A stretch of 57,374 bases of DNA from positions 1 through 57,374 of the IMG/VR virus record IMGVR_UViG_3300006805_000034; one strand, written 5' to 3'. The notes under the pieces are model-generated. The model ran no database searches. It was not told the DNA's origin and was given only the letters and a program-made list of their open reading frames with translations. Made by a program: the position numbers and the translations under genes. Numbering within the stretch: position 1 is the first letter of the stretch; every line of letters starts with the position of its first letter. Origin of the DNA: a virus. Shown in pieces: positions 6,184 through 57,374 of the stretch.

Positions 6184-7128
6184 ATGAAAACACCCGATTA
6201 CGAACACCTTGCGAGAATTCACCAAAATGCTGCTTCAGCGGCGCACGATGGAGAAACTGCCATTACTCCATGGGAACTCGTGGAGGGTGGGGTGCAGAAA
6301 GCCCGGATTGATGGGATGCAGGCTGCGATTGAGGAGTATGAGCGTCTGCGGATGGAGCAGGCTGCGGAGGGGATGCCGAGTGTGGAGGATTGTGTCAGGC
6401 TGTGGCATGAATGCCCTGGGATCAATGCAGGAGTGGCGGCTGTCCGAGCCCTCATTATTTCTGCGTTTGCGCGAAAGATGGGGGCTGACAACACAGGCAA
6501 CTGGGCTGCTGCGGCAGCCCAAGATTTGACGGCAGCAAAGCAAGAGATTGCTAATCTGACTGCCAGGTTTGAAGCCTGCGACCAAGCCCGGAAGAACGCC
6601 TGTGATGACCGAGATGCCGCCCGGGCGAAGCTGGAAAAAGCGGGACATTTAGCGTGGGGGTGGAGAGCCTTGCACGGGGGTCCGGAGACGAGATCGGTGC
6701 TGAACGGCTGCGCGGATGGACTGGAAAGAATTCTAAAAGCGGGGGCTGCGGTGGAGGAGTCCGAACAGAGGAAGGCAAAAAAATGTTTGGAAACTGCTTT
6801 GCAGGTGGAACGGCAGTTGCGTGAGGTTGCGGAGGGGCGGCTGGCGGAGATTGCGAAGCTGCCGGCGAAGTGGAATAACACGCCATGTGGCAGTGGACTA
6901 GCCGGTCAGATATACCGAGAGCAACTTAGCGAGTGCGCCAAGGAACTTAGGGGCATCATCAATTCAGAACTGGCCGCCGAGGAAGTGAGCCGGGCGGAGT
7001 TTGAGGCGGAATGGAGGGTCTATTGCCCTGGTGATGATTTTACCGTCGATGAAAAAGTCGCTGCCTGGCACATGTGGCAGGCACGCGCCGCCAAGGAGGA
7101 GCGGAAGCCGGAACACGCTGAAGCGTGA
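6184..7128 (+). CDS. Coiled-coil hypothetical protein
   Basis: 314 residues with predicted coiled coil around 115-155 (LTAAKQEIANLTARFEACDQ onward) and 195-225. The middle contains a Trp/His-rich GHLAWGWRALHGG. The last residues KPEHAEA and the TGA stop are supplied by an inserted family B element, so the ancestral C-terminus may have been longer. No family recognised; position suggests an early gene. Confidence 0.65.
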   Translation: MKTPDYEHLARIHQNAASAAHDGETAITPWELVEGGVQKARIDGMQAAIEEYERLRMEQAAEGMPSVEDCVRLWHECPGINAGVAAVRALIISAFARKMGADNTGNWAAAAAQDLTAAKQEIANLTARFEACDQARKNACDDRDAARAKLEKAGHLAWGWRALHGGPETRSVLNGCADGLERILKAGAAVEESEQRKAKKCLETALQVERQLREVAEGRLAEIAKLPAKWNNTPCGSGLAGQIYREQLSECAKELRGIINSELAAEEVSRAEFEAEWRVYCPGDDFTVDEKVAAWHMWQARAAKEERKPEHAEA

Positions 7129-7139
7129 ACAACGAACGA
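7110..7139 (+). repeat. Palindromic element B supplying a stop codon
   Basis: CACGCTGAAGCGTGAACAAC. Read in the frame GAA-CAC-GCT-GAA-GCG-TGA it terminates the preceding gene. Confidence 0.85.
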
Positions 7140-7173
7140 TTAGTCACCCCATTTTTTAACTCAGCATTCCCCG

Positions 7174-8004
7174 ATGATGATTATGAATACGAACACGAAC
7201 ACCAATACACCCAGCAGAACACAGACAGTGACGATGGAGCGGTCCGGCTTGGGCCGAGACCGAGATTTGAGTCAGAGCCAGAGCCGGAACCAGAGCCCGC
7301 TGCAAGGAGGTGATGGGGACGCTCGACCAGAACCGCCTAAAGGCGGGACTGCACTGCTAGGAACCGGAGGACGGAACACGCTCAAGCGTGAACAACGTAC
7401 GGAGGAAGCGGGCAGGAGTGCTCGCGCTCCTCTCATGCAAGGGCGGGGGAGTTTGCAGCCGAAGTGTCCGGTGGGGGTGATGGAGGGTCGGCTGTGTGGC
7501 TGGGTGGACCTGGGGACGCAGCGGGTGCGCTTTGGCAGTGGTGCTGCTGCCGGCGCTGCTGACGCCGGCGCGGGGAAAGGGCTGCGGAAGGTGATGCTGA
7601 CGTTCTGTGTGCGGGGCGCGGCAGGGGAGTCGTGGCGGGTGAGCCGGGAGTTTACGCTGTCCGGCGGGCCGCGCAGTGCGCTGCGGGCGCTGCTGGAGGC
7701 CTGGCGTGGGCAGCCGTATGCGAGTGATGAGGAGGCGTGGCAGGCGGTGCGCAAGCCACTGCGGGTGCTGGAGCGGCAGGGGCTGGTGAGGATCAGCGAA
7801 CGGGCGGGCAAGGACGGTCGGCTGTGGCCGCAGGTGGAGGGGGTGTGGCCGATGCTGAAGGGAGCGCAGGCGCTGCCGCTGCGCTGGCCACCGGTGTATT
7901 TTACGCTGGAGGCACTGTGCCGGGAGACGTTTCAGGGGCTGCTGCCGTGGGTGCAGGCGAAGGTGCGGGCGAGTGAGGAGTGGGGGAGGTTGGCCGCAAA
8001 GTGA
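7174..8004 (+). CDS. Phage protein with repeat-derived N-terminus (possible replication/recombination factor)
   Basis: Up to 276 residues; ATGs at 7174, 7177 or 7183 are all possible. The first about 90 residues are low complexity (NTNTNTNT, SQSQSRNQS), then elements A, B and D read in frame (PEPPKGGTALLG, NTLKREQRT, GRSARAPL). The true domain starts near GSLQPKCPVGVM and contains RKVMLTF, REFTLS, LRALLEAWRGQPY and a later RISERAGKDGRLWPQVEGV. This resembles a family of phage proteins often near SSB or recombination genes (pattern Y/FTLS...L...WRG). That link is from memory and tentative. Confidence 0.6.
   Translation: MMIMNTNTNTNTPSRTQTVTMERSGLGRDRDLSQSQSRNQSPLQGGDGDARPEPPKGGTALLGTGGRNTLKREQRTEEAGRSARAPLMQGRGSLQPKCPVGVMEGRLCGWVDLGTQRVRFGSGAAAGAADAGAGKGLRKVMLTFCVRGAAGESWRVSREFTLSGGPRSALRALLEAWRGQPYASDEEAWQAVRKPLRVLERQGLVRISERAGKDGRLWPQVEGVWPMLKGAQALPLRWPPVYFTLEALCRETFQGLLPWVQAKVRASEEWGRLAAK
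7277..7437 (+). repeat. In-frame cluster: C-like, A, B and D elements
   Basis: Partial C near 7277-7310, A at 7329-7369, B at 7372-7402 and D at 7408-7437 are tiled head to tail inside the coding region at 7174. Confidence 0.8.
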
Positions 8005-8104
8005 CGCAAAGAGGCGCAAAAAACCGGAGACTGAAATTGCACCGCAGAGATTGGAAAACCGCAGAGTTCAGAAGGCTGGTAAAAGATGGGCGGTGAAAAA
8101 TGAA
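7991..8104 (+). repeat. Families H and G plus CCGCAGAG units between genes
   Basis: H-type CGCAAAGAGGCGCAAAAAAC, then ACCGCAGAG direct units (8040-8065), then a G element (8072-8100). These fill the gap between two rightward genes. Confidence 0.65.
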
Positions 8105-8541: not shown

Positions 8542-8712
8542 CAGAACCGGAACCGCCTGAAGGCGGAACTACACTACGAAGAGCCGGAGGCGGACACGCT
8601 TAAGCGTGAACAACTTACGGGGGACCGGAGCCGGTTAAAAACCGGCGCTCCCAGTGGGGAATCCGGACACGCTGCTGCGAAGCCGCGAAGCGAACCGTGA
8701 ACAACATACGTT
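8542..8712 (+). repeat. Repeat cluster A, B, C, B-long
   Basis: A at 8542-8589, B at 8591-8620, C at 8628-8655 and a longer variant of B with an internal extra hairpin at 8664-8712. These occupy nearly all of the gene-free gap 8514-8710. Confidence 0.85.
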
Positions 8713-9280: not shown

Positions 9281-9354
9281 GGGGGAAGCTTAGGCATGGG
9301 GCGGAAAAGTCAAGGGGAGGACGGAAGCGGTTTTGTAATGGGTGAGTGGGGAGC

Positions 9355-9466
9355 CGGAACACGCTGCTGCGTGAACAACGTGTCGCCGGAACCGCCTGAA
9401 GCCGGGACTGCAATACTTCCGGAACACGCTGAAGCGTGAACAACGTACATTGAACAACGTACGGCG
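9355..9466 (+). repeat. Repeat cluster B, A, B upstream of terminase
   Basis: B with CACGCTGCTGCGTG core (9355-9382), A (9385-9423) and B with a duplicated GAACAACGTAC end (9421-9465). They fill the 230-base gap 9281-9510 together with an ATGCGTTG box at 9472-9479. Confidence 0.85.
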
Positions 9467-13796: not shown

Positions 13797-16700
13797 ATGC
13801 CTGCTGATCTGAACTACCTGCTCCAAGCCCGCCGCAATCGCTACGCCCAACCTGCCGGAGGAGCGCGTGCGAGCAGCCCTGAAGACCCTCGGGCTGCGGT
13901 GGAGGAGGAGGCGTTTCAGGCGGAGTCCAAACGGCTGGCGCTGGCGGCGAAGGAGCAGGAGGCAGCGGCTGAAGAGGCGGCCAAGGCCTATGAAAAAGGG
14001 CGCAGGGATGCTGACAAGGAAGCGTTGCGGGCGCGCAACAACGAGATGGAAGCCAAGGCCCGGCGCGAGAAACGGCCGATCTACACGGATGCCGACGGCG
14101 TGATCCAGAGCCAGTACACGGATGACGAGTGGCAGGCACAGAAACAGCGCAAGGCCAAGAATGACCAGTTGCGCACGCGGTATTTCAAGGAGCAGCGCCC
14201 GTGGGTGGAAGATGCCGACGGCAACCTGGTGACGCGGCACACGGATGAGCAGTGGCAGGCGATGCAGGCGGAAAAAGTGGCCAAAGAAAAGGCTAAGGTG
14301 ATCGACGACCAAGCGAAGGACTGGCGCGAGCAGAAGGGCGCGGCGCTGACGGCGGTGGATGACCAGACAGCGCAGGTGATGCGTGGGCTGGATCTGGACG
14401 GGCAGGACCTGGGGCTGAGGCACAAGGCCAAGCTGGACACGGTCAAGAAGGCGAATGCGCAGATCAAGCTGCTGGAGCAGGAGATCGAGAACGGCGAGAC
14501 CGAAGCGGGTCAGATTCTGGATGGAGCGGCGATTGCCAAGCGCACGGCGGCACGCCAGGCGCTGGTGGGGGAGCGTGACAAGGTGCAGGCGGAGGCGGAC
14601 GAGGCGGAGGCCAAGCTGCGGGCGCATGAGGTGCGCAAGCTGGAGTACAGTCGGGCCAACAACGAGGTGCAGGGCTGGCTGCAGAGGGAGAAGCATGGGC
14701 TCAAGACGGCGCTGCCGCCGGTGGTGATGGGGGTGAAGGGGAGGGAAGAACCGGCTAAAGCCGGGACTACACTACCCGGAGGCCGGAACCAGAGCCAGAG
14801 CCCGTTGCAAACTGGCGCTCCCAGCCCGGAAACCGGAGGCCGGAACACGCTGAAGCGTGAACAACGTACGCCGGAGGAGGCGGTGCGCAGGGCGGTGATG
14901 GAGGGGCGGATTTCGGCGCTGGCGGAGGATGATTCTTTGTCGGACGAAGAGAGGGCGGTGAAGCTGACGCGGCTGATGTTGCAGCGGGATGATCCGGCGG
15001 CGTATGAGACGCAGGTGCTGCAGGAGTTTGAAAGTCTGGATCCAGAACAACTCAATGCGACGCTGGACGGGCATTTGCAGGATTTCGAGATGCGCAAGCA
15101 GGACTGGCAGTCGCGCCGGGATGCGCTGCGGGAGCAGACCCAGGCAGTGAATGCCGAGGTGGATGGCGTGCTGGCGCGCAATGCGCAGCGGCTGCAGCAG
15201 CCGCACAAGGCGGCGGACTTGATTGAGTACACCACGGCGGACGGTGGGAAAGTGAGTGTGTTCAAGGATCTGGCGCCGCAACTCGAGCAGGCGCAGGAAA
15301 AGGCGGGCACGTTTGAGAAGCAGAATCAAGCGCAGATGGACCAGATCAACGCCGAGGGCGGGGAACTGGAGCGGGCGGCGAAACTCATTCACGCCGGCGG
15401 AGGTGTGTTCCAAAAAAAGCAGGAAGGGGCCCGCGTGGCCGCCAAGGCTGAACGGCAGAAGGTCTATGAGCAGCTCAATGCCATCCCTGGCGCGAAGCTG
15501 GGCGATGAACTGGCGGCGGTGGATGCCGCGGTGGAAAAGCACCAGGGCGGGGATGATGTGAGCCTGCAGGAGTGGGCGGCGAAGGAGCGGGAGAAGATTG
15601 CGGCGAAGGCGGAAGATGTGCAGAAGAAAGTGGGACCGGCGGTGCAGGAAGCCTATGCGGCGGCCAGTGCCAAGATGCCGGCGGGTGTGGACCTGAACGG
15701 GGAACTGGACCGTGATCCGCTGGGGCTAGAAGGCCCGGCATCCGAGGCAGGAGTGACCAAGCTGCTGGAAAAGATGGGGCTGCCATCGTCGAAAGAGAAC
15801 CGTCAAATGGCGGTCAAGATGCTGCGAGATGCGGCGGTGTTGGACTGGAGTCGAGGAGACACCAGCGCTCCGGTACGTACGGACAGTGCGGGTCGGGTGC
15901 TGGTGAATCCTGAGCGCTGGACGGATGGCGAGGCGTATGCCGAAGCCGTGGCCGGGGCGGGCGCGAGTGAGGCGGAGAAGGCCAAGGCGCTGAAGATGCA
16001 GCCGGAACTCAAGGCGCAGGCGATCAAGCTGAAGCTGGACACGCTGCGGCCGCTGGGGGTGTTTCGCGAGTGGGAAGAGGCCGAGGTGCCACCAACGCGC
16101 GAGGAGAAGATGCAGGCGCGGGCCAATGGCACGCAGGCGGTGCCGCGCAAGCTGCATGAAGGTTTGAGTGATGAGGAGAAACTGAAGCTGTTTGAGAAAG
16201 AAAACAGCGGGGTGTTCAGCACCGGAGCGTGGAAGGTGCGCTGGAATCAGGCCTTGCTTGGGGCCGTGCAGGGAGTGATCGGGCTGGCGCAGAGTGCCAC
16301 GGGGATTGCCGCACCGTTCAGCGATACAGCGCTGGATCTGAATCGGAGGTTTGGCCAGGACGCGGCGCAATTGGGCGCGGCCAGTCAGGCGCTGCCGACC
16401 GGGCAGTGGGTGAATCAAGGAGCGAGCATGCTGGTGAGCAGTGCGCCGTCGCTGGCAGTGGGGGGCGCGGTGGGCGCGGCCACCCGAAGCGAAATGCTGG
16501 CGCTGCAAGGCGCGGCGGCGGGTGCTGGACTGCAAACGTTTGGACAGGTGTACGGCGATGCGGTGCAGGGCTCCATGCAGAACAAGGGCATGACCAAGGA
16601 CGAGGCGCGCCAGGCGGCGCTGGTGCCGGCGCTGGCGAGCGGGGTGTCAACCTATGCGTTGACAGCGGCGGGCGGCACGAACGGCATGGAAAGCGCGCTG

Positions 16701-19700
16701 CGTCAGGAAGGGTTCAAACAAGGGCTGAAGCAATGGCTGACAACGGTGGGCAAGGGCGCGCTGAAGGAAGGCGTGCTGGAAGAGGGGCCGGATCAGTTGA
16801 TTCAGGGCGTGATTGCCCGGCACAGCTATGACCCGACGAAGAGCTGGGCGAGCATTTGGGAAGAGACGGCGACGGCGGTGATCGGCGGGGCGCTGATGGG
16901 TGGGGCGTTTGAGATGATGTCGGGCGGTGGAGGTACGTCTCAAAATGGCAAAGGAATGGAGGAGCAAGGGAATGGGGGAACTGGACAGGCTGTGGGGCCG
17001 GAACCAGTCGTCACCCCAGTGGCGGAAACTGAGCCGGTTGTGGCTCGCCCGGAACCGGCTGAAGCCGGGACTACACTACTGCCGGAAACCGGACCGGACA
17101 CGCTTAAGCGTGAACAACGAACAAAAGAGGCGGAGGCGGAGCTGGCGGGGTTTGCGCCGGAGGGGATGTCGGCGGCTGCGGTGGCGGCCACGAAGGCGAA
17201 GGCGGAGGTGCTGCTGCGCATGGCGCAGGGGGAAACGCTGGCTGATTTTAACGATGAAGAGCTGCGTCAGGTGGGGCTGAATCGAGACGGGACGCCGGGG
17301 CATTATGAGTCGGTGCCGGTGGACAAAAAGAATCCGCAGGCGGGACGCACGAGCGTGTGGAAGAAGGGTGTGCGAGCGGATGGGTTTCAGCCGGTGGTGG
17401 TGGAGGACGGGGAACTGATCATAACGCAGCGTCAGATTGACAACCTGGGCGTGCGGTTGCCGGCGGTGGCGGCGCGGATCGGGAAAAGCGAGGTGGAGCG
17501 GAGGCGAGAGATTGCGGGGAAGGGGGCGCTGATTTCTGGCAAAGGAATGAAGGATCAAGGGAATGCCGGAACCGGAGTGGAGGGCCGCAAAGAAGCGCAA
17601 GAACCGGAGAAAAAAGGGTCAGAGGCCGGAGGTGGACAGGATGGACAGGATTCCAGAATTTCAGGATTGAGGACGGAACTCGCGGCGGCGGCGGCTGCCG
17701 AGTCTAGCCCCGTGGTGGCTAGCCCGGAACCGGCTCAAGCCGGGACTACACTCCTGCCGGAGGACGGAACCGGAGCGGACAGGAGTGTCCGCGCTCCTGT
17801 TGAAGCGGTGGGGTTTGATCCGGCGGTGGAGCGGCGGGTGGATGAGATTGGGGCGGAGCTGGCGGGCCGTGGACTGAGCGGGGAGCAGGCGCTGAGGGCG
17901 GCGCGTGGGGTGGTGGGGCGCATGGGCGTCATGGGGCCGAAGTATGAGGTGCAGATGATCGACCCGGCGTTTGAGGAGGCGATGAAAGCGGAGGGATTTC
18001 AGCGGGATCCGGCCAAGATGTCGCGGTGGATGGCGCGTGGGCAGTTCAAGGCGGAGACGCGGGGGGAAAAGCCGGTGATGCGGAAGGCGGAGGGTGCTAA
18101 GAGTGGACCTGGGGTGGCTAGCCCGGAACCGGCTGAAGCCGGGACTACAATACCCGGAGGCCAGAGCCAGTTGCAAACTGGCGCTCCCAGTACGGAGGCG
18201 GGCAAGAGTGCCCGCGCTCCGCTCATTGAGCGCGGTGACTGGAAGCAGGCGAAGGGGGAAGTGATTGGGGTGATGCAGGGACGTGCGAAGGGGCTGCCGG
18301 AGGCGGGGAAGAAGGCGGCGGGGGACAAGATCAAGGCGGTGGTGAAGCGGTTCAACAAGCTGGAGGAGCTCATTGACACAAAGTTTGGACGTCTGTTTGA
18401 GGGCGTGCGGATTGTGCCGAATGGGAGTTCAGGCGGCGGTGGGCTGGCAGCGCAGGTGACGGGCTACGATGCGCAGGGCCGTGCCACGGGTGTGGAGCTG
18501 GTGGTGGATGCGGCGACGTTTGCGGAAGCGGGCGGCGTGACGGATTCTGAACTCGAGCGTGCGCTGAATGAGGAGTGGCAGCACCGCGCGGACCTGATGG
18601 TGATGAGCCGGAGCGAGGCTATTGCTTTGGCGCGGGACATTCATGCGGCGCAGCCGGGGGTGTTTAACTCGGCGTGGAAGCAGTACTTTGCGGTGTATAT
18701 CAACGCGGGAAGCAAGCCAGCCAAGCCGCCGGTGGAACTGACCGATGACGAGGCTTACATGATGTATTTTGAGGCCAGCCGCATGATCCGCCAAGGGACG
18801 TTCACCAGTGAGAATGCGGCGATTCGTGACGTGGGGCTGCTGCAACGCATGTACCTGATGCTGAGCCGGTACGTGAATTTTGTGAAGCGCGAGATGAAGA
18901 AGCTGCCGCAGGATCTGCGCGAGCTGTGGGAGGACAAGCTGACAGCAGCGGAAGCGGTGATGCGCAAGACGAAGGAGGCGGGGATTCGGTTGCAGAAGGA
19001 AGGCTTGGATGACGTGGAGCCGCCGGAGGGATTGCCGCAAAAAGGCGCAAAAACTCGCAAAAAAGAGGAAGTTAATGAGGATGAGGAAGCCATGGCGATG
19101 GCGGCGGATGCTGAGATGGATGTGCGGCCCGAGCGGAAGGGGGCGCTGCGGAATCCGGGTGAGAATGCAATTCGGGGCATGGCGGCCATTCCTGACCCGG
19201 ACAACGGCAAGGAAAACGTGGTGGTGTGGATCAATCGCTACCATGGACGCATCACGCGGCCGTCCAAGGGCTGGCTGGAACGCATGGCGCAGGACGGCAA
19301 GGACCGCTCAAAAATTGGCGACTGGGATGACATTCGGCAGGCGGAGATCCCGAGCTTTTATGCGGGGCTGGTGTTCAAGAACGGCAACGGCAGCACGCTG
19401 GACCAAGCACTGCAGGAGCTGCATGGCCTGGGGTATTTCCCCGGCGTGGCCGCTGAGGATGTGACCGGCGAGATGCTGGCCCGCAAGATCAAGGACGTGA
19501 TCCAACGCTACCAGGGCAAGAAGCAGGGCGGCGCCACAACGGTGCAGGATGAGGAGCAGGCGCATTTTGAGCGGATGGAGAAGCAGCGGGTGGAGTTTGA
19601 GCGCAGCACGTCCAAGGGGCCGATCTACGTCAAGCCGCATGAGATGCAGCCCGGTGACGTGATGATGGTGAAGGCCGATGATGGCAAGATGCACCGAGTG

Positions 19701-21494
19701 GAGGTGCTGCGACTGGACAGTGAGCCTGTGGCTGCGGGTGACGAGTTTGATCCGGATGCGAATCCGGCGCAGTTCATGGGCCCGGATGGGCCGATGGAGA
19801 TCCGGAGTGTGACGCTCAGGGACGGCACGACGTTTGGCGTGCAGACGATCGACGGTCAGCAGGGGCTGTACGTGGATGCCTTCAGCGTGCGCCAGGAAGG
19901 CGACTTTTACGCCGGGCTGAGCGATGCGGTGCAGAATCGCACGATCGACGATGCGGACGCGGTGCTGCGGGTGATGCAGCACGAGGGCATGGATGCCACG
20001 ACGCCGTTTTCGCAGATCGTGCTGGCGATTCAGCAGAACCTGCGGGTGCCGATGCGGCGCGCGCAGAAGATGCTGGCGCAGGTGATGGACACAGATGCCA
20101 ACGCCACGGTGTGGACGAATGGAGAACTCAAGGAAGCGCTGGAGAGTCCGCTGGGGAGTCCTAAGAAACAGGCTGGGCCGGGATTGTTTGGGGAGGATGA
20201 GATGAACTTTCTGGGGGACCGGAACACGCTGGGGCTGTTTGAGCAGGCAGGGCGTAAAGAAGCGCAGGTTTCTGGCAAAGGAATGAAGGAGCAAGGGAAT
20301 GCCGGAACCGGAGTGGGGACCACGGATGGCACGACTAGAACGGATCAGAAGACGAAGGCCGGCGGTGGACAGGATTTACAGAATTCCATCATTACAGGAT
20401 TGCCGAAAAGCGCTGAACGACCCAGTTTTGCGCAGGTGCGTGATGCGATTGTGGCACAGACCCCGGAGAAACGAGGCTTGTCAGTGGATGATTACATTGA
20501 TGACAATTTGGAGCGGACTTATCCGGCTCCTGGAACTCGATTTAAAGTCAATGGTAAGACCTACCATTGGACCATCACCCCAGGAACCAAGCTGCGTGGC
20601 AGCAGCATGGCTTTCAGCAATCCGTGGATGAGTGTTTTTGAAGGGGAGCGCAATTTCTTGGTCAAAATTCCTTTTGCCCCCGAACTCACGGCGTCACATC
20701 TGCGCAAAGCAGTGAGGGCAATTCACGAGGATGCTTATCCCGCCAAAGAGTTCACCCTGGAAGCGAGCACGGCGCAGGAGCTCAAGGCCGAGGCGGAGAG
20801 GAAGGTGCTGCGGGAGAATCTGCTGGCGCGGGCGGAGAAGCCGCTGGTGGGGACGCTGGGGGACATCGGGCAGACGCAGATGTTTGGGGGCGGGGATTTG
20901 TTTGCGCAGCCGAAGAAAACAACCGATACTCAAAACCAAGATGCACCAGCTACCTCCGGAAGTTTGGAACCAGATCGCCCGCGAGGCACCGCTGGCGACA
21001 CCGGCCGCACGCGCGGCCTTCAACCTGCCGCCCCAGAAGCAGGAGGCAATGCTCAACCAGTGGGCCCAGAGCGAGCAGAAAGCCAAGACGCCGGCGTGGG
21101 CGGTGGTGCCACTGCAGGAGGTGCTGCCCCTGCTGGCGGAACAGCCGGCGCTGAGCCAGTTCAAGGACAAGCATCCCGAGTTCCTGGACGCCCTGCCCGA
21201 GGTGAACAGCCCGCAGGAGGCGGCGCAATTGATGAGCCGAGAGCGGCAGTGGAGTCCGGCGCAGAGCTCGACCTTTCTCCAGTTGCTCCAGAGCGGCCAG
21301 CCGTTGACACGGTGGCAGCAGAGCGCGAGGTTACTGCACGCGACCGCCAGCTAGAGCAGGCCAAAGTTCAGGTAGAACCCAAAGAATGGGATCGGATGAA
21401 AGTGGCTGATGAGAGAGAGCATCGCCAAGAGTTTGCCGATGCTGCTGCCGCAGCAGCAGGACGATGTGCTGAAAACGGAGCGCCGCTTTTTTGA
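13797..21494 (+). CDS. Giant virion/ejection polyvalent protein, N-terminal partner
   Basis: 2,565 residues. Regions: QARRN N-terminus; charged coiled coils (30-310 and 360-620); Ala/Gly-rich membrane-type segments (about 810-925) resembling membrane-active regions of phage ejection proteins; a helical domain (1480-1750); and a conserved-looking domain PSKGWLERMAQDGKDRSKIG to LGYFPGV (about 1815-1900) like those in phage polyvalent proteins. Seven clusters of palindromic elements read in frame (near 317-360, 1050-1109, 1247-1292, 1310-1336, 1442-1478, 1747-1757 and 2152-2202). From 20941 to about 21330 the frame is Ala/Gly/Pro-rich and overlaps another gene. The end (VQVEPKEWDRMKVADERE) seems to continue into the next ORF after a shift at 21411. 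A role in the virion and in ejection is inferred. Confidence 0.75.
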   Translation: MPADLNYLLQARRNRYAQPAGGARASSPEDPRAAVEEEAFQAESKRLALAAKEQEAAAEEAAKAYEKGRRDADKEALRARNNEMEAKARREKRPIYTDADGVIQSQYTDDEWQAQKQRKAKNDQLRTRYFKEQRPWVEDADGNLVTRHTDEQWQAMQAEKVAKEKAKVIDDQAKDWREQKGAALTAVDDQTAQVMRGLDLDGQDLGLRHKAKLDTVKKANAQIKLLEQEIENGETEAGQILDGAAIAKRTAARQALVGERDKVQAEADEAEAKLRAHEVRKLEYSRANNEVQGWLQREKHGLKTALPPVVMGVKGREEPAKAGTTLPGGRNQSQSPLQTGAPSPETGGRNTLKREQRTPEEAVRRAVMEGRISALAEDDSLSDEERAVKLTRLMLQRDDPAAYETQVLQEFESLDPEQLNATLDGHLQDFEMRKQDWQSRRDALREQTQAVNAEVDGVLARNAQRLQQPHKAADLIEYTTADGGKVSVFKDLAPQLEQAQEKAGTFEKQNQAQMDQINAEGGELERAAKLIHAGGGVFQKKQEGARVAAKAERQKVYEQLNAIPGAKLGDELAAVDAAVEKHQGGDDVSLQEWAAKEREKIAAKAEDVQKKVGPAVQEAYAAASAKMPAGVDLNGELDRDPLGLEGPASEAGVTKLLEKMGLPSSKENRQMAVKMLRDAAVLDWSRGDTSAPVRTDSAGRVLVNPERWTDGEAYAEAVAGAGASEAEKAKALKMQPELKAQAIKLKLDTLRPLGVFREWEEAEVPPTREEKMQARANGTQAVPRKLHEGLSDEEKLKLFEKENSGVFSTGAWKVRWNQALLGAVQGVIGLAQSATGIAAPFSDTALDLNRRFGQDAAQLGAASQALPTGQWVNQGASMLVSSAPSLAVGGAVGAATRSEMLALQGAAAGAGLQTFGQVYGDAVQGSMQNKGMTKDEARQAALVPALASGVSTYALTAAGGTNGMESALRQEGFKQGLKQWLTTVGKGALKEGVLEEGPDQLIQGVIARHSYDPTKSWASIWEETATAVIGGALMGGAFEMMSGGGGTSQNGKGMEEQGNGGTGQAVGPEPVVTPVAETEPVVARPEPAEAGTTLLPETGPDTLKREQRTKEAEAELAGFAPEGMSAAAVAATKAKAEVLLRMAQGETLADFNDEELRQVGLNRDGTPGHYESVPVDKKNPQAGRTSVWKKGVRADGFQPVVVEDGELIITQRQIDNLGVRLPAVAARIGKSEVERRREIAGKGALISGKGMKDQGNAGTGVEGRKEAQEPEKKGSEAGGGQDGQDSRISGLRTELAAAAAAESSPVVASPEPAQAGTTLLPEDGTGADRSVRAPVEAVGFDPAVERRVDEIGAELAGRGLSGEQALRAARGVVGRMGVMGPKYEVQMIDPAFEEAMKAEGFQRDPAKMSRWMARGQFKAETRGEKPVMRKAEGAKSGPGVASPEPAEAGTTIPGGQSQLQTGAPSTEAGKSARAPLIERGDWKQAKGEVIGVMQGRAKGLPEAGKKAAGDKIKAVVKRFNKLEELIDTKFGRLFEGVRIVPNGSSGGGGLAAQVTGYDAQGRATGVELVVDAATFAEAGGVTDSELERALNEEWQHRADLMVMSRSEAIALARDIHAAQPGVFNSAWKQYFAVYINAGSKPAKPPVELTDDEAYMMYFEASRMIRQGTFTSENAAIRDVGLLQRMYLMLSRYVNFVKREMKKLPQDLRELWEDKLTAAEAVMRKTKEAGIRLQKEGLDDVEPPEGLPQKGAKTRKKEEVNEDEEAMAMAADAEMDVRPERKGALRNPGENAIRGMAAIPDPDNGKENVVVWINRYHGRITRPSKGWLERMAQDGKDRSKIGDWDDIRQAEIPSFYAGLVFKNGNGSTLDQALQELHGLGYFPGVAAEDVTGEMLARKIKDVIQRYQGKKQGGATTVQDEEQAHFERMEKQRVEFERSTSKGPIYVKPHEMQPGDVMMVKADDGKMHRVEVLRLDSEPVAAGDEFDPDANPAQFMGPDGPMEIRSVTLRDGTTFGVQTIDGQQGLYVDAFSVRQEGDFYAGLSDAVQNRTIDDADAVLRVMQHEGMDATTPFSQIVLAIQQNLRVPMRRAQKMLAQVMDTDANATVWTNGELKEALESPLGSPKKQAGPGLFGEDEMNFLGDRNTLGLFEQAGRKEAQVSGKGMKEQGNAGTGVGTTDGTTRTDQKTKAGGGQDLQNSIITGLPKSAERPSFAQVRDAIVAQTPEKRGLSVDDYIDDNLERTYPAPGTRFKVNGKTYHWTITPGTKLRGSSMAFSNPWMSVFEGERNFLVKIPFAPELTASHLRKAVRAIHEDAYPAKEFTLEASTAQELKAEAERKVLRENLLARAEKPLVGTLGDIGQTQMFGGGDLFAQPKKTTDTQNQDAPATSGSLEPDRPRGTAGDTGRTRGLQPAAPEAGGNAQPVGPERAESQDAGVGGGATAGGAAPAGGTAGAEPVQGQASRVPGRPARGEQPAGGGAIDEPRAAVESGAELDLSPVAPERPAVDTVAAEREVTARDRQLEQAKVQVEPKEWDRMKVADEREHRQEFADAAAAAAGRCAENGAPLF
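14745..14870 (+). repeat. In-frame cluster A, C, B
   Basis: A (EEPAKAGTTLPGG), C (LQTGAPSPE) and B (NTLKREQRT) in a row inside the giant ORF. Confidence 0.9.
16947..17122 (+). repeat. In-frame cluster E, A, B
   Basis: E (GKGMEEQGNGGTG), A at 17049-17085 (PEPAEAGTTLLPE) and B at 17097-17122 (DTLKREQRT), following the membrane-type segment. Confidence 0.9.
17537..17668 (+). repeat. In-frame cluster E, H, F
   Basis: E (SGKGMKDQGNAGTG), H (GRKEAQEPEKKG) and F (GGGQDGQDSRISG). Confidence 0.9.
17723..17803 (+). repeat. In-frame cluster A, D
   Basis: A (PEPAQAGTTLLPE) and D with core GCGGACAGGAGTGTCCGC (ADRSVRAP). D keeps a perfect stem despite base changes relative to other copies. Confidence 0.9.
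18121..18228 (+). repeat. In-frame cluster A, C, D
   Basis: A (PEPAEAGTTIPGG), C (LQTGAPSTE) and D (AGKSARAPL). Confidence 0.9.
19034..19065 (+). repeat. In-frame H element
   Basis: CGCAAAAAGGCGCAAAAACT, translated PQKGAKTRKKEE, before an acidic stretch. Confidence 0.75.
20250..20402 (+). repeat. In-frame cluster H, E, F
   Basis: H-like (GRKEAQ), E (SGKGMKEQGNAGTG) and F (GGGQDLQNSIITG), the same order as at 17537 apart from E and H being swapped. Confidence 0.85.
20941..21354 (+). CDS. Gene nested in the giant ORF, alternative frame
   Basis: 137 residues in frame +1 relative to the giant ORF (MHQLPPEVWNQIAREAPLAT onward; later LSQFKDKHPEFLDALPEV and RWQQSARLLHATAS). The translation has a normal globular composition with GC-rich third codon positions. 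The overlapping giant-ORF frame is a Gly/Ala/Pro/Arg-rich linker here, so the nested frame is probably the selected one. It ends at TAG 21352-21354. No strong ribosome-binding site is seen. Family not recognised. Confidence 0.55.
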   Translation: MHQLPPEVWNQIAREAPLATPAARAAFNLPPQKQEAMLNQWAQSEQKAKTPAWAVVPLQEVLPLLAEQPALSQFKDKHPEFLDALPEVNSPQEAAQLMSRERQWSPAQSSTFLQLLQSGQPLTRWQQSARLLHATAS

Positions 21495-29232: not shown

Positions 29233-29267
29233 GGGGACGCTGGGCCGAGTGGAGCGAATCAGTTTGG

Positions 29268-29292
29268 CAAAGGAATGAAGGAGCAAAGGAAT
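29268..29292 (+). repeat. E element
   Basis: Family E copy between the giant ORF and the next gene; the ATG at 29298 follows within 6 bases. Confidence 0.8.
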
Positions 29293-29297: not shown

Positions 29298-29735
29298 ATG
29301 ACTCAAAAGACTCAAAGCTTCGCCATCGGAACTCGTTGCCGTCGCAAGAATCCGTTTATTCTATATCACTGGTCGCCACGGTGCAGGAGGGAATCAATCC
29401 TGCGCAACGGGCTTGTTGTTGGCAGTAAACACGCAATTCACTCAAATGGCTGGAGAGCTACCTATCTCTGCTTCTCGGACAGTCCTTCGTTTGGGTGGGC
29501 TTATAGCGCCGACACCAGCAAAACAAAAGGCGAATGGGACCTGTGGATGGTTTGGAGTACTGGGCTGAGCAGTCTATTTTACCGCTCTGATCATCATGGC
29601 CAGATGCCAGCCGAATACCGAACCAAGCACAACGTTGCCAAGAAGAATCTTTGGCTTGTGGGTTCTAGATCAAGGGCGAAGGGGAAGGGGAAGGGGAAGG
29701 GCCGAGCGGCGCGAATCCATTTGGCAAAGGAATGA
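29298..29735 (+). CDS. Possible ADP-ribosyltransferase-like small protein
   Basis: 145 residues. The opening ILYHWSPRCRRESILRNGLV matches the start of small ART or Tpt1/KptA-like folds (LYH...S...ILR.GL, the NAD-contacting His and following helix). It continues with TYLCFSDSPSFGWAYS and a Tyr/Trp-rich C-terminal half. Base composition is lower in GC than the flanks. The Lys/Gly tail (SRAKGKGKGKGRAARIHLAK) and stop come from a GGGAAG hexamer tract and a family E element. Function is tentative: modifying host protein or nucleic acid, or a toxin-like factor. Confidence 0.5.
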   Translation: MTQKTQSFAIGTRCRRKNPFILYHWSPRCRRESILRNGLVVGSKHAIHSNGWRATYLCFSDSPSFGWAYSADTSKTKGEWDLWMVWSTGLSSLFYRSDHHGQMPAEYRTKHNVAKKNLWLVGSRSRAKGKGKGKGRAARIHLAKE

Positions 29736-29750
29736 AGGAGCAAGGGAATG
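29678..29750 (+). repeat. GGGAAG hexamer tract and E element
   Basis: About four GGGGAA units (29678-29701), then E (29719-29750), which provides the TGA stop of the upstream gene. Confidence 0.8.
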
Positions 29751-36546: not shown

Positions 36547-36939
36547 ATGAAATTCCAGATTGATCCTTCGCAGTTTGAAATGCCGGTGTCGCTGGCGACT
36601 TCCATTGTTGGGGCGGGATTGAGCGCGTTGGGACTCGTTGCGGCGACGCTGGCGGGATGGTGGGCAAAGTTTGCGACGATCGACCCGCAGGAGCTGGCGA
36701 TTCAGCCGCTGCATGTGGTGCTGATTGGTTTTATCATTGCCCTGGCGGCGTTCATTGTGCTGATTCTGCGGGCGGTGTGGGGCAAGGGCATTGAGACGGT
36801 GAACCGCTTCAGTGATGCGCTGAACAATCAGGCGGCGCAGATAGCGCAATTGATCGAGCTGCAGACGAAGCGGGTGGAGAAATTGGAGACGCTGAGTTTT
36901 GACGCGCTGAGGGAGGCGGCGGAAACCAGAACACGCTGA
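36547..36939 (+). CDS. Holin candidate (two-TM protein with cytoplasmic helix)
   Basis: 130 residues. Two hydrophobic helices (about 15-40, LATSIVGAGLSALGLVAATL; about 57-77, VVLIGFIIALAAFIVLILRA) are followed by a charged helix (LIELQTKRVEKLETLSFDAL). It precedes an endolysin and esterase, the expected position for a holin. The last residues ETRTR and the TGA are supplied by a family B element, so the C-terminus has been altered. Confidence 0.6.
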   Translation: MKFQIDPSQFEMPVSLATSIVGAGLSALGLVAATLAGWWAKFATIDPQELAIQPLHVVLIGFIIALAAFIVLILRAVWGKGIETVNRFSDALNNQAAQIAQLIELQTKRVEKLETLSFDALREAAETRTR

Positions 36940-37000
36940 AGCGTGAACAACAAACCCGGAACCGGAACCGCCTGAAGGCGGGACTACAATACGAAGAGAC
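36929..37000 (+). repeat. B and A elements; B supplies a stop
   Basis: B (36929-36954, read ACA-CGC-TGA) ends the holin candidate. A with core CCGCCTGAAGGCGG follows (36959-37000) and abuts the next start. Confidence 0.85.
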
Positions 37001-37008
37001 TGAAACTT

Positions 37009-37209
37009 ATGAAACGGACTTGCTACATTGCGATCAATATGATTCGGACGAATCCGGGGGAAGCGGATGGGTGGACGGATCGGTTTGTGACGTTGATCAA
37101 CACGCGGCTGCCTGATGGGGTGGTGAAGGACCACAGTGATGATGCGCAGGGGCATTCGACCTGGCTGCAGCGTGGGGTGCGGTTTGAGGGGCTGATGCAG
37201 GCTATTTAA
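37009..37209 (+). pseudogene. Internally deleted copy of the hydrolase at 37929
   Basis: 66 residues. The N-terminus MKRTCYIAINMIRTNPGEAD with GWTDRFVTLIN and the C-terminus VVKDHSDDAQGHSTWLQRG match the two ends of the 226-residue hydrolase downstream. The central about 160 residues, including the GHSNG nucleophile, are missing while the frame is kept. It cannot be a working esterase. It may be a remnant or a small derived protein. Confidence 0.7.
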
Positions 37210-37786: not shown

Positions 37787-37923
37787 CCGGAACCGGCTAA
37801 AGCCGGGACTACATTACGAAGAATCCAGAACCCAGAACACGCTGCTGCGCAGCCCCTGAAAGGGAACCGTAAACAACGAACAAAGAACCAGAGCCGGTTA
37901 AAAACCGGCGCTCCCAGTACGGA
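37787..37923 (+). repeat. Repeat cluster A, B-long, C
   Basis: A (37787-37825), long B variant with an extra internal hairpin (37836-37882) and C (37889-37923) fill the gap before the hydrolase ATG. Confidence 0.85.
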
Positions 37924-37928
37924 AACTT

Positions 37929-39931: not shown

Positions 39932-39999
39932 ACAAAGTCATCGATGCCGATGAGGTCGAAACGCTCAATGAGCGTCTGGCCGACCTGCGCGAGGAACGC

Positions 40000-48589: not shown

Positions 48590-50308
48590 ATGGTACACCT
48601 AACCACCAACACCAAGGATCCGCTCGGCTTGCCGGCGGGTGAACGCCATCTCTTCGACACGACACAGGGAGGGCATTACATGGTGGCTGGCTATGGAGGG
48701 AATGTGACGCCGGCGGAGTTTGGGCCGTTCAATCCGTACGAGGCCATCACCAACGCCAGCGTGCTGATCATCCGCAGCGGGGGGATGGGAGACGTGCTGT
48801 TTTGCATGCCGGCGCTGGCGGCGCTGCGGAAGCGTTTTCCAGTCCTGCGCCTGACGTTTGCCTGCCTGCCGGTGTATCATGCGATGCTGACGCACCCAGA
48901 CCTGGAAGGGCTGGAGGTGATCGCGCATCCGGTGAAATCGGCCACGGCAGCTGAATTTACGCATGTGGTGCCGCTGGAGGAAGTGATCGAGTCCGACCAG
49001 GAGCACGATGCGGTGACGATCTTTGCCCGGGCGCTGGGGCTGACTCTCAGCAAGGACGAATGGATGCCGCGGCTGCGGGTGCCGAGTGACGCGATCCTGG
49101 CGGCGCAGGCGGAATTCCCCAAGGCGCAGGGGCAGGTGTTTTTTGGCATTCAACTGCGGGCGAGCCACCAATGCCGGACGTGGCCGGTGCAGTTCATCAT
49201 GGGGGCGGCGCAGGCGCTCTTAAATCGCCACGCGAACGCCGTGGTGTTCATGTTTGGCCTGAAGCAGGACTGGGAAGGATTTGAGAATGTGCAGCATGCG
49301 CGGGTGGTGTGGCTGCCGGAGCAGGACCTGACCCTGACCGAAACGCTGGCGGTGATGACGCTGATGGACGGATTCATCGCCCCGGACTCGGGCCTGCTGC
49401 ACTGCGCGGGCGCGCTAGGGCTGCCGGCGGTGGGATTGTTCGGGCCCTACCAGTGGCAGAAGCGGACGCCGTATTTTCCGACGGTGCACGGGCTCAACGG
49501 TCAGGCCCCCTGCGCGCCGTGCCATCACCCGGCACGCACGAGCGCCTTTCCGCCGGGCATGCCCTGTGCCAAGCACGGCGCGTGCGTGGCACTGGGAAGT
49601 CTGACGCCGGACCGGGTGGTGACGCGGCTGCTCAAGACGATGAGCGAGTGCGCGGCGGCGAATGGCAGCGTGAAACCGGCGGAGCGCCGCCACTACATGG
49701 TGCAGAGCTTGTTTGGGCCGGTGCAGGCCAAGGGGGATGTGCATCCCGACCTGCCGAGGGCGGGGGAGTATCACCTGGGGAACTTTGGGCACGGGGCGGC
49801 GACGATCGAGGAGGCGCAGATGCTGCATGCGCTGGTGCTGGCGCTCAAGCCGAAGGTGTGCGTGGAAACCGGCACGGAAACCGGCTGGACGGCGGCCTAC
49901 ATCGCTGCCGCGCTGGAAGCCAACGGGGGCGGACACCTGACCACGCTGGAGATCAACCCGCAGATGCGCGAGCTGGCGGCGGAGCACCTGACGCACTGGG
50001 ATCTGGCGCACCGGGTGACGATCAGCGGGGAGAGTAGTCTGGAGTGGCTGAAAAACTACGCGGGGCGCGCGATTGACTTTGCGCTGCTGGACACGCACAT
50101 CCCGATGCGTGCCGAGGAACTGGCGCTGCTGCTGCCGCACCTGAGCGATACCGCGCTGGTGTGCGTGCATGACACGAGCCCGGAGCACCCGATGCGCGGC
50201 GAGACGGACCTGCTGGCGCAACTGCGGGCCAGCGGAATGAGCGTGGTGCACGTGGCGACGCCGCGGGGAATGACGATCATGCAGAGGCGGAGCTCGGATT
50301 CTTTTTAA
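48590..50308 (+). CDS. GT9 glycosyltransferase fused to SAM methyltransferase
   Basis: 572 residues. Residues about 55-345 are glycosyltransferase family 9 (heptosyltransferase-like): SVLIIRSGGMGDVLFCMPAL, the acceptor/donor region LMDGFIAPDSGLLHCAGALG and LPAVGLFGPYQW, and a Cys-rich CAPCHHP/CAKHGAC zinc-like segment. Residues about 420-545 are a class I methyltransferase: VCVETGTETGWTAAYIAAAL, LTTLEINPQMRELAAEHL and DFALLDTHIPMRAEELALLL. Could attach and methylate sugars on LPS or the virion. The two activities in one chain, next to two more sugar-type genes, suggest a cell-surface or capsid glycan module. Confidence 0.8.
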   Translation: MVHLTTNTKDPLGLPAGERHLFDTTQGGHYMVAGYGGNVTPAEFGPFNPYEAITNASVLIIRSGGMGDVLFCMPALAALRKRFPVLRLTFACLPVYHAMLTHPDLEGLEVIAHPVKSATAAEFTHVVPLEEVIESDQEHDAVTIFARALGLTLSKDEWMPRLRVPSDAILAAQAEFPKAQGQVFFGIQLRASHQCRTWPVQFIMGAAQALLNRHANAVVFMFGLKQDWEGFENVQHARVVWLPEQDLTLTETLAVMTLMDGFIAPDSGLLHCAGALGLPAVGLFGPYQWQKRTPYFPTVHGLNGQAPCAPCHHPARTSAFPPGMPCAKHGACVALGSLTPDRVVTRLLKTMSECAAANGSVKPAERRHYMVQSLFGPVQAKGDVHPDLPRAGEYHLGNFGHGAATIEEAQMLHALVLALKPKVCVETGTETGWTAAYIAAALEANGGGHLTTLEINPQMRELAAEHLTHWDLAHRVTISGESSLEWLKNYAGRAIDFALLDTHIPMRAEELALLLPHLSDTALVCVHDTSPEHPMRGETDLLAQLRASGMSVVHVATPRGMTIMQRRSSDSF

Positions 50309-50340
50309 CCACGGAATACACGGAATACACGGAAACCGGA
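50309..50340 (+). repeat. Family I repeat
   Basis: ACCACGGAATACACGGAATA, second copy of the type seen at 6118; forms the leader of the next gene. Confidence 0.75.
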
Positions 50341-51008: not shown

Positions 51009-51647
51009 ATGACCTTCCCCGAACTCAACAACCTGCATGCCGGACGTCCGGCGGTGATCGTTGGCAAAGGGCCGAGTCTGGATGCGTGGCTGGCTGCGGG
51101 ATGTCCGCAGCCGGAGGGGGCGGTGAGGATTGGCGTGAACCAGGTGGCGGTGGTGGTGCCGGAGGTGGTGTACTCGGTGTCGGGCGATGCGCAGATGGAC
51201 AGTCCGGAGCATCTGGCGCTGCCGACGCAGTGGCTGCGGGCGGTGCCGTATGAGACGCGCGAGGGGAGGCTGACCTATGGCCAGCGTTTGCCAGACAAGG
51301 TGATCCGTTTTCACTGCTATCCGGCGGTGCCGGAGTTTGCCACGGCCTGCCTGAACAGCTCACGGGACGAGGTGGCGGCCCTGACCTGGCTGCATGGAGC
51401 GATGAGCAGCGCGGACCCGGCGGTGCATCTGGCGTGGTACCTGGGCTGCACGGAGGTGCTGCTGGTGGGGATCGACGGTGGGAGCGTGCGGGCGCAAGTG
51501 ATGGAAGAGCAGGGGGACCGATCCGGGCCGCCGAGCTATGACAAGCTGCGGCAGTGCGTGAGAGAAGGGGCCCAGCGGTTGTTTCCGTTTCGGTGGAGGC
51601 ACTGGGAGCCGGGGGTGGCTACGGTCCCGGAATTTGGACAGGATTGA
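51009..51647 (+). CDS. DUF115 / MAF-like glycan protein
   Basis: 212 residues. AVIVGKGPSLDAWLAAGCPQ near the N-terminus is the signature of DUF115 (MAF flagellin accessory or sugar-transfer-linked proteins). It is followed by RIGVNQVAVVVPEVVYSVSG, HLAWYLGCTEVLLVGIDGGS and a C-terminal helix. Probably acts with the GT9 and methyltransferase genes in modifying a surface glycan. The stop TGA is provided by a family F element (GGACAGGATTGACAG), which also contributes the last residues EFGQD. Confidence 0.75.
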   Translation: MTFPELNNLHAGRPAVIVGKGPSLDAWLAAGCPQPEGAVRIGVNQVAVVVPEVVYSVSGDAQMDSPEHLALPTQWLRAVPYETREGRLTYGQRLPDKVIRFHCYPAVPEFATACLNSSRDEVAALTWLHGAMSSADPAVHLAWYLGCTEVLLVGIDGGSVRAQVMEEQGDRSGPPSYDKLRQCVREGAQRLFPFRWRHWEPGVATVPEFGQD

Positions 51648-51665
51648 CAGGATTACAGCATTTAA
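51636..51665 (+). repeat. F element supplying a stop
   Basis: GGACAGGATTGACAGGATTA. The TGA ends the DUF115-like gene. Confidence 0.8.
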
Positions 51666-51698
51666 GAAACTGAGAGTGCCGTTTTGAGCCCGGACTGG

Positions 51699-52692: not shown

Positions 52693-52723
52693 CGGAACAC
52701 GCTAAAGCGTGAACAACGTACGG
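52693..52723 (+). repeat. B element supplying a stop for the leftward gene
   Basis: CACGCTAAAGCGTG core. On the minus strand it reads ...RTLFTL-TAG and ends the gene at 52702. Confidence 0.85.
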
Positions 52724-53121
52724 GGATCAGGCGAGAGGCAGCACGGGGGACGCGAGGAATGGGGCGAGGCGTTTGGGTGTTGCTGCCAGGGGAGGGGAAT
52801 GGTGGGAGTGTGGGGATGGATGATGTGCTGGCCGAGGGCGGCATCAAACCAGCCTTCGAAGACGATGATGCCGCGCCAGCGAAAGAGCTTGTGAGCGAGG
52901 CCGCGGTGCTGGCTGTAGTGAGGGATGAGCCAGTGACCGTGATTGCGCAGGGTTTCCGGGGTGGGCATGCCGCATTCCTGGGACTCCAACCAGGGGCGCA
53001 GGGTGGTTTCCCAGTGCGTGTCACACTGGAATGCGATCTGGGCAGCGAGGGTGGGAAGGGTGTCGAGTCCGCCGGGCTCAAAGTGGGAGAACCGGAGGCT
53101 GGTCTGGGTGGGGAAGTTCAT
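52702..53121 (-). CDS. Hypothetical phage protein with repeat-derived C-terminus
   Basis: 139 residues. MNFPTQTSLRFSHFEPGGLD, AAQIAFQCDTHWETTLRPWL, RNHGHWLIPHYSQHRGLAHK and LFRWRGIIVFEGWFDAALGQ form a plausible domain. The last residues (DPRTLFTL) and stop translate a B element. Family unknown. Confidence 0.6.
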   Translation of the reverse strand: MNFPTQTSLRFSHFEPGGLDTLPTLAAQIAFQCDTHWETTLRPWLESQECGMPTPETLRNHGHWLIPHYSQHRGLAHKLFRWRGIIVFEGWFDAALGQHIIHPHTPTIPLPWQQHPNASPHSSRPPCCLSPDPRTLFTL

Positions 53122-55543: not shown

Positions 55544-55616
55544 GAGGGTTTAAAGTTGCAGGTTTAAAGTTTTAAGTTGTCGGAGCCGGAACACGCTGAA
55601 GCGTGAACAACGAGCG
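55544..55616 (+). repeat. M and B elements
   Basis: M units GGTTTAAAGTT (two, 55546-55575) and B (55586-55616). Both are translated backwards as the C-terminus of the C5 methyltransferase (ALVVHASACSGSDNLKL). Confidence 0.8.
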
Positions 55617-57374
55617 CGGACTGGATGCGCTGGGCGATCCAGCGGGCGCAGGGGACGGCCCAGGAGTTGCCGAGGGCTTTGTAGCGGGGGCCGTCCGGGC
55701 TGTGGGCGCACTGGGTGGCGGTGAGCTCGTCCATGCCGAGATCCCTGAGGTAGGCGATGGTTTGGGCGAGGTCGGCGGCTTTGCGCAGGCGGCCGCCTTT
55801 GGAGGGGAGGAGGGTGTAGCCGATGAGGAAGCCTTGCAAAATTTCGCATTCTTCGGGGGTGAGGCGTCGGACGCGCCAGAGGCTTGAGACTGGATGCTGG
55901 ATGCTGGATTCCAGAGGCTGGCTGATAAGGGTGTTGCTGCTGTTTTGGATGGCGGAGCCGGTGCCTTCGCGGATGGTGCCGGCGGTGTCGGTGGGGGTGA
56001 CGACTTCACGCGTGCCTTCACGCGTGCCTTCACGCGTGCCGTGGAGCGTGTAGGCGACGTGTGGGGAGCCGTCGCCGGCTTTGCAAGCGTCTGCTTTAAG
56101 CACTGCGACATCGCTGGGAGCGCCCCCTGTTTTGTTGTCGCAAGTGTAGTAGCGAGGCTCGAAGCTGATGGCTTCCTGGACAGCCACACACGGGGCGGCG
56201 TCACCTTTCCCGCTCTGCCCGCTCTGCGCTTGGAGCGCGTTGACGACATCGCCGGTGTTGCCGCGGCCATTGCGGGCGATGCGGGGCTGGAAAGCGATGG
56301 GGGCAGAGTCAGGAACGGGGTCAGAGACCCCGGCACCTTGGACTGGGAACGCGACGGCGGTGGGATTGTGGGACTGGAGGACGGGTGACAGGTCTTCAGT
56401 GCCAGCGCGCAGGGTGGGGGCGAGATCAGCCGTGGCGTCGGCTCCGTGGTCTTTGGCGGAGAAAGCCACGCAGTGGGGCTTCATGGTGTCGAGGGCTCCC
56501 ACGACTTCACCGAACACCAGCGGCGGGCGGTCGTAGCCGCGGCCATCATCGCCACGCATGCGGGCGGAGAAAGCGATGGGTAATTCGTCCAGACCACCTG
56601 AAGGCGGGACTACACTACTTGGAATGGGGACGAGCGGGGTGCCGCGTCCGGTGCCGTCTTCGCTGGCGTCGAAACCTTCGGCGCGTAACGAATGCGTTAC
56701 ATCGACGAGAAGCGTCTGCCTCTCGTCCAGCGTCGTGTTCGGCCCCTTGTGCATGCGGAGGGTGAGGCAGTTGGCGAGATGGGGGATGAGTTTGGATTCT
56801 TGGCTCTCGTTGTCGGCGTGGTAATTCGTTGTGAGAGGGGCGCAGATTTCAGGGATGGCTTTTGCGGCCGTGGCTACGATGTGATTGGCGCGGGCGTGTT
56901 CGACATCGCTGCCGCCGTCGGTGCTGCGGAGTGTGAGGCAGTTGGCGAGGTGGGGAATGAGGAGGTTTTGCTCGGCGTCTTGGGAGGTGGCAGATCCGGC
57001 GGCTTTGCCGTTGGCGGAGAGAGTGCCGGCAAGGTCTGCGACGATGGTCTGCGGCTGGGTGGGGGCAGTGGTGACGCGGAGGCGGGCTAGTCCGTCATCG
57101 GTCCAGTAGCCTGCGCCGGTTTCGGCGGCGCAGCAGGCTACGACTGGGTCTTGTCCGCGTGTTTCTCCGGTTCTTTCGACTCCTCCGCCACCGCCTTTAG
57201 CGCGTGCGCTAAGGGTGGGGGCAGTTGTTTGCCCCGTTTCTCGGCGCGGCGGAGTATCCCGGCGCAGGCCAGTGAACTCAAATAGAACCGCTGCGGGATC
57301 GAATGCGGGATCAGCACTTGCGACAACGAACACACGCTTGCGTCGTTGGGCCAGTCCGAAATATTGGGCATCGA
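55564..57374 (-). CDS. dcm-like: DNA cytosine-5 methyltransferase (5' end off window), with repeat-filled variable region
   Basis: Partial. At the right edge the minus strand reads DAQYFGLAQRRKRVFVVA, motif VIII (QRRxR). The end RRLTPEECEILQGF and YKALGNSWAVPCARWIAQRI are motifs IX-X. Motifs I-VI lie beyond the window. Between VIII and IX some 450 residues form an expanded target-recognition region with recurring short units (LIPHLANCLTLR twice; AFSARMRGDD, AFSAKDHGAD). It also carries elements A (reversed, SSVVPPSGGLDE), N (GVSDPVPDSAP) and K (QPLESSIQHPVSS) and three GTRE tandem units. The C-terminal 17 residues translate a B element. The ordinary family member ends near ARWIGRRI. Confidence 0.85.
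   Translation of the reverse strand, partial: DAQYFGLAQRRKRVFVVASADPAFDPAAVLFEFTGLRRDTPPRRETGQTTAPTLSARAKGGGGGVERTGETRGQDPVVACCAAETGAGYWTDDGLARLRVTTAPTQPQTIVADLAGTLSANGKAAGSATSQDAEQNLLIPHLANCLTLRSTDGGSDVEHARANHIVATAAKAIPEICAPLTTNYHADNESQESKLIPHLANCLTLRMHKGPNTTLDERQTLLVDVTHSLRAEGFDASEDGTGRGTPLVPIPSSVVPPSGGLDELPIAFSARMRGDDGRGYDRPPLVFGEVVGALDTMKPHCVAFSAKDHGADATADLAPTLRAGTEDLSPVLQSHNPTAVAFPVQGAGVSDPVPDSAPIAFQPRIARNGRGNTGDVVNALQAQSGQSGKGDAAPCVAVQEAISFEPRYYTCDNKTGGAPSDVAVLKADACKAGDGSPHVAYTLHGTREGTREGTREVVTPTDTAGTIREGTGSAIQNSSNTLISQPLESSIQHPVSSLWRVRRLTPEECEILQGFLIGYTLLPSKGGRLRKAADLAQTIAYLRDLGMDELTATQCAHSPDGPRYKALGNSWAVPCARWIAQRIQSALVVHASACSGSDNLKL
55889..55915 (+). repeat. K element
   Basis: GACTGGATGCTGGATGCTGG, read backwards in frame inside the methyltransferase just before motif IX. 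Confidence 0.8.
56005..56040 (+). repeat. Three exact 12-base tandem repeats
   Basis: TTCACGCGTGCC x3, coding GTRE units. Copy-number change would keep frame. Confidence 0.95.
56303..56345 (+). repeat. Palindromic element N (in frame, reversed)
   Basis: GGGGTCAGAGACCCC stem with flanking GGAAC and GGCACC, coding GVSDPVPDS. Confidence 0.75.
56589..56625 (+). repeat. Element A inside methyltransferase, reversed frame
   Basis: CCACCTGAAGGCGGGACTAC. Opposite strand reads SSVVPPSGGLDE without a stop. Confidence 0.85.

Follow-up and report, generated by a model that had tools for sequence, protein, structure and literature searches.

Bacteria already offer documented cases of stop codons and C-termini supplied by REPs or MITEs. 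TAG stops of flanking ORFs often come from GTAG REPs, and slightly more than 10% of the repeats are located where a coding region ends; copies of the GTAG/CGTC REPs also occur in frame, and such repeats are abundant in the Verrucomicrobium O. terrae (PMC3733652). The Rickettsia palindromic elements, named in the same paper, are read in frame inside proteins. In Coxiella burnetii, the small elements QMITE1/2 alter C-termini at gene 3' ends (PMC5896051). Among the enterobacterial RU-1/2/3 elements, a fusion with RU-1 abolished the usual stop and gave the protein a new C-terminus (ECA3499; PMC2759123).

The repeats analyzed here resembled the GTAG/CGTC-tagged REPs (PMC3733652) in being short, palindromic, dispersed and stop-providing. 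However, they differed from the chromosomal GTAG REPs in that the carrier was a phage, the stop was usually TGA, no inverted doublets occurred in the phage and five families were non-palindromic; only families A (GTAG) and C (GGAG) had a matching tag. They shared the alteration of C-termini with QMITE1/2 and RU-1/2/3, but those elements are chromosomal, of other sequence and longer, being ~190 bp or more at full size (PMC5896051) and 103-168 bp (PMC2759123), respectively. In contrast to the Rickettsia palindromic elements, the same families had, within one phage genome, copies that supply stops as well as copies that are read through. No description of the phage setting, the repeated capture in sister phages or the strand uniformity was found in a limited literature search.

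The window, meaning the whole stretch of 57,374 nt (IMGVR_UViG_3300006805_000034), represents a temperate Verrucomicrobiaceae phage; it encodes an integrase (36-827), and a terminase-like gene lies at 10346-12043. At least eight families of short repeats, each of ~30 bp, were dispersed over it. A profile search seeded with eight families, A-H, gave 63 credible elements, ~2 kb in total, a 64th, weak match to B at 8663 being left out. B was present as an exact match in over 120 stretches of genomes, mostly from Verrucomicrobiaceae (Prosthecobacter, Brevifollis), as well as in 37 stretches of viral DNA. The host genomes contained dispersed copies of families A, B, E and F, and reversed control patterns for A, E and F gave no matches there. 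The features discussed below are collected in Table 1.

Table 1. Genes, repeat elements and related features of the window.
Feature	Coordinates	Strand	Remark
Coiled-coil-like gene	6184..7128	+	Ended by B (...RKPEHAEA-stop); same-locus homologue in G069, highly diverged, ends ...SNEAAE-stop
Element B	7109..7139	+	TGA 7126-7128 of gene 6184-7128
Gene ended by D in the window	7174..8004	+	A and B also in frame near the N-terminus
Element D	7992..8028	+	TGA of 7174-8004
Giant polyvalent-type ORF	13797..21494	+	14 elements read in frame, in contrast to stop-supplying copies
51-bp E-containing direct repeat, left copy	29242..29292	+	Right copy 29699-29749; 90% identity
ART-like gene (phrog_12283)	29298..29735	+	Flanked by the 51-bp direct repeat containing E
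Element E	29719..29750	+	TGA of the ART-like gene (HLAKE-stop)
Holin candidate	36547..36939	+	Tail ETRTR-stop
Element B	36927..36957	+	TGA of the holin candidate
Element H	50308..50337	+	TAA of 48590-50308 touches the H edge
MptE/DUF115-like gene	51009..51647	+	Tail VATVPEFGQD-stop vs VVKPAP-stop in G069
~75-bp insertion relative to G069	51622..51696	+	Flanks TGGCTACG / TGGCTATG
Element F	51636..51671	+	TGA of gene 51009
Element B	52693..52723	+	Complement supplies the stop of leftward gene 52702-53121
Leftward gene	52702..53121	-	Ends PRTLFTL-stop in B
C5 cytosine methyltransferase	55564..57333	-	Tail IQSALVVHASACSGSDNLKL-stop vs IAQHLAQ-stop in G069
Element B	55587..55617	+	Minus-strand read-through forms the methyltransferase tail (SALVVHASACSG)

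A search for loci related to the holin candidate led to a sister phage contig of 61.9 kb (G069), which had ~75-90% DNA identity to the window and was collinear with most of it. Close prophage relatives were also searched for in the host genomes, where distant protein matches alone were recorded. About 30 orthologous genes of the two phages were confirmed by codon-position substitution patterns, and most of them shared the end residue. The comparison also bears on whether the repeat-borne ends are artefacts of misassembly at repeats or of wrong ORFs, as might be feared for a metagenomic virus contig in which genes 6184 and 29298 have no close orthologs. We regard this as highly improbable, given that an independent contig aligns collinearly with the window over ~37 kb, that codon-position substitution bias supports a coding role for 51009, 52702, 36547, 7174, 48590 and the methyltransferase, and that sequencing reads are longer than the ~30-bp repeats. 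Apart from these genes, one ORF of the sister phage (397 aa) corresponded to two ORFs in different frames at 39401-40572 of the window, a split due to a frameshift, recoding or a sequence error.

The earlier note had placed the stops of five genes within repeats B, E and F, and all the coordinates and peptides were confirmed on the sequence; likewise, the methyltransferase tail, which the note had also ascribed to B, was found to be read through that element. Two further gene ends were added, those of 7174-8004, with the stop in D, and of 48590-50308, with the stop at the edge of H. Altogether, 7 of 40 stops and none of the 40 starts lay within the 63 elements (5 of 38 stops when 6184 and 29298, which were entered from the earlier note and not from the gene caller, were left out). 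The overlap exceeds chance: circular shifts gave a mean of 1.47 stops in elements with P(≥7)=0.00135, and when elements were placed only in those parts of the window that lack alignment to the sister phage, the mean was 1.11 and none of 2000 placements reached 7.

We propose that these protein ends are a side effect of a repeat burst on which tolerance acted as a filter, and not a designed function; we hold this to be very likely. Repeats of the host family would colonize the phage by insertion or sequence replacement and would be kept where proteins tolerate change, namely at gene junctions, at C-termini and in linkers between the domains of giant proteins. Where a repeat arrives close to a 3' end, the outcome would be decided by the frame in which it falls. 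A closed frame would give a stop and a few new residues (EHAEA, TRTR and RTLFTL from B, HLAKE from E, GQD from F, AAK from D), and an open frame would extend the protein to a stop shortly after the repeat, as in the methyltransferase. Within genes, only copies in open frames would survive. The new tails themselves may be neutral.

A different relation between repeats and gene ends would arise by passive overlap, if spacers turned over fast, repeats lay just behind genes and C-termini drifted, the repeat not being the cause of the change. Consistent with this, 14 of 40 extragenic elements lay within 20 bp of gene 3' ends, and ends differed in 3 of 25 orthologous pairs without an element at the tail. 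However, where the window had an element at the tail, ends differed in all 6 pairs (Fisher P=1.1e-4, the classes having been assigned by hand). Since an insertion necessarily changes the tail, this contrast shows that element-free ends are otherwise stable, 22 of the 25 being unchanged. Passive overlap is also opposed by genes 51009 and 6184, described next, and we consider it unlikely.

At 51009, the old tail had been pushed downstream in the window by a discrete insertion. The frame before insertion would read ...VAMPEL-stop, comparable to the end of the G069 protein, and this sequence, with its old stop, survived downstream. A clean insertion is well supported as the origin of this end. The divergence from G069 began ~15 bp ahead of the F core because the inserted unit was larger than the core. 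In the hosts, F occurred as inverted pairs spanning 130-179 bp, in line with the terminal inverted repeats of a MITE; the phage copies were single-sided. Searches for 51009 homologues by peptide patterns in viral contigs and in 8 host genomes found none. Upstream of this gene, the tail of 48590-50308 was RSSDSF in the window vs Q in the sister phage.

At 6184, a TAG of ancestral type was found at 7141-7143 within the motif TAGTCACCCC, in frame and four codons past the new TGA. The end of the gene in G069 read GAATAG-CCATCCC, and in the window B was followed by TTAG-TCACCCC. It is well supported, as far as the alignment of a highly diverged partner gene allows, that B was probably inserted in front of the old TAG, which was retained behind the repeat. 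No homologues of 6184 were found by peptide patterns in viral contigs or in 68 Verrucomicrobiaceae genomes. The motif TAGTCAYCCC was itself present in 9 copies in the window (0.05 expected), at 3830, 4562, 6089, 7141, 24227, 31400, 42357, 52080 and 53666, and most copies lay shortly before a gene start or at the end of a gene, whichever the strand; it is possibly a phage regulatory motif.

Two gene ends had been captured convergently, by different elements in the two phages. Gene 7174 ended in D in the window (GRLAAK-stop) vs B in the sister phage (GRMVGAR-stop-SVNN), and gene 52702 ended in B vs an F-like element (PEILQS-stop), which indicates that such rewriting recurred. The matching interval of G069 contained a same-family element for 2 of the 16 B copies and for 12 of the 15 A copies; it seems that B either spread recently in the window, as a burst, or was lost in the sister phage. 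Between genes, a block of ~115 bp at 9340-9462, containing B-A-B, stood against 8 bp in the sister phage as a clean insertion of several elements. The polarity, a gain in the window vs a loss in the sister phage, is clear only at those ends that retain the old stop or tail.

The methyltransferase, which is homologous in sequence to phage C5 methyltransferases, was aligned with the G069 protein up to a conserved "RI", from where the tails differed. Read-through of B contributed the peptide VVHASACSG, and the stop lay 20 nt beyond the element. Besides the G069 protein, the homologues were distant phage enzymes only; those methyltransferases, from unrelated phages, aligned to residue 575 and ended 1-9 residues later.

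For the holin candidate, homology stopped at residue 125 in both relatives. The tail was AGKEH in the sister phage (L167) and ATQASNTTTHHKP in the homologue L166, which lacks a repeat; the latter again favors passive overlap, and the holin tail may be free to vary regardless of the repeat. Downstream, a truncated and internally deleted second copy of gene 37929 was observed at 36999-37209, upstream of 37919-38609 (82% over 124 bp); both copies were preceded by element clusters, and a single copy was present in G069. For the ART-like gene, which had no ortholog in the sister phage, the match to the family profile stopped 18 residues short of the C-terminus. This gene was observed as a cargo gene between the repeats at 29242-29292 and 29699-29749.

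It had been suggested that repeat arrival repeatedly set protein ends, which was borne out at 51009, 6184, the methyltransferase, 7174 and 52702 but not at the holin candidate, where the homologue free of the repeat changed as well. The accompanying expectation that homologues would diverge exactly at the element edge held only in part. At 52702, the divergence began ~50 bp upstream of B, at 51009 it preceded the F core as described, and at 36547 the edge matched, but so did the change in L166.

The copies within genes were examined by reading frame. On the + strand, B has two closed frames and one open, and B copies within + genes always gave NTLKREQRT. Across the phage, B was read in five of six frames as unrelated peptides, which argues against selection for one peptide. 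In-gene copies of A (PEPAEAGTT) and C in + genes used a single frame although two were open, a possible sign of selection, or of linkers having been copied as complete units and not hit by separate insertions. In-gene F used the frame closed in the consensus, opened by substitution (GATGGAC, GATTTAC), and the copy at 51009 kept GATTGAC and thus the stop. These patterns fit the idea that copies are kept where they are tolerated, with a degree of selection, or of copying in units, for linkers. The giant polyvalent-type protein genes with linker repeats occupied 13797-29232; the repeat sets of the linkers differed in G069, and an ORF break at 21.4 kb in this region also differed between the two phages.

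All 63 elements of the eight families lay on one strand of the window, and the equivalent strand was used in the sister phage (L172-L175). This orientation bears on a further explanation, by which the repeats would be functional 3' ends (terminators, mRNA stabilizers or ribosome-stalling REPs) selected to overlap stops. In line with such a role, A, B and C are hairpin-capable palindromes, and in other organisms GTAG REPs follow genes and often contribute the stop codon (PMC3733652). Nevertheless, the orientation tracked the DNA molecule and not transcription, the elements being on the + strand even beside or within leftward genes verified by codon substitutions. Furthermore, D, E, F, G and H formed no hairpins, many copies lay inside ORFs and families replaced one another at the same gene end. 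Selected functional ends were thus judged very unlikely, and by-products filtered by tolerance remained the preferred reading. The orientation was compared with transcription in the window alone, as gene-strand calls in six other B-bearing phages were too weak (small margin, minus genes).

The + strand of the window was G-rich nearly throughout, including the leftward regions. In the six other B-bearing phages, which are related to one another and not independent, 26 of 29 elements agreed in orientation with the GC skew around them, and in most of the phages the orientation switched with the skew. In the hosts, element orientation was balanced and 53 of 68 close B neighbours were inverted doublets; no such doublets (REPIN/BIME) were found in the phage, where all elements were on one strand. 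A, B and C resemble REPs in being palindromes of 20-40 bp with many dispersed copies (C was counted mainly in phages). The 5' tag on the reverse complement was GTAG-TCCCGCCTTCAGGCGG in A, which matches the REP tag, GGAG-CGCCGGTT..AACCGGC in C and GTTG in B, which is not a canonical REP tag. Y1_Tnp was present in 67 of 68 genomes of the family. Mobilization of A, B and C by RAYTs is not claimed: in an incomplete sample of 30 RAYT loci, none of these repeats was found beside the Y1 transposase gene.

Single-strand transposition of the IS608 type targets the lagging-strand template (PMC6006769). Insertion of this kind would yield a one-strand orientation pattern. The repeats may therefore have arrived through strand-specific insertion during phage replication. 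It is conceivable, although we put it forward only tentatively, that arrival is strand-locked to replication, unrelated host repeats entering with a single orientation with respect to the replication strand, as is known for single-strand transposition of IS608/IS200-type elements. The flanks TGGCTACG / TGGCTATG around the F insertion at 51622-51696 give one case of a possible target site duplication of F. To our knowledge, a direct repeat such as surrounds it is not expected from IS608-type chemistry.

If arrival is strand-locked, a phage lineage would gain a polarized rain of stops and tails, with the frames set by gene direction relative to the fork. The one-strand orientation makes it testable whether the mobility of the repeats is tied to the replication of the phage DNA. 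The compact genome and the two sister phages offer a natural before-and-after record of mobile repeats re-setting C-termini, which includes the same gene captured by different repeats in the two phages.
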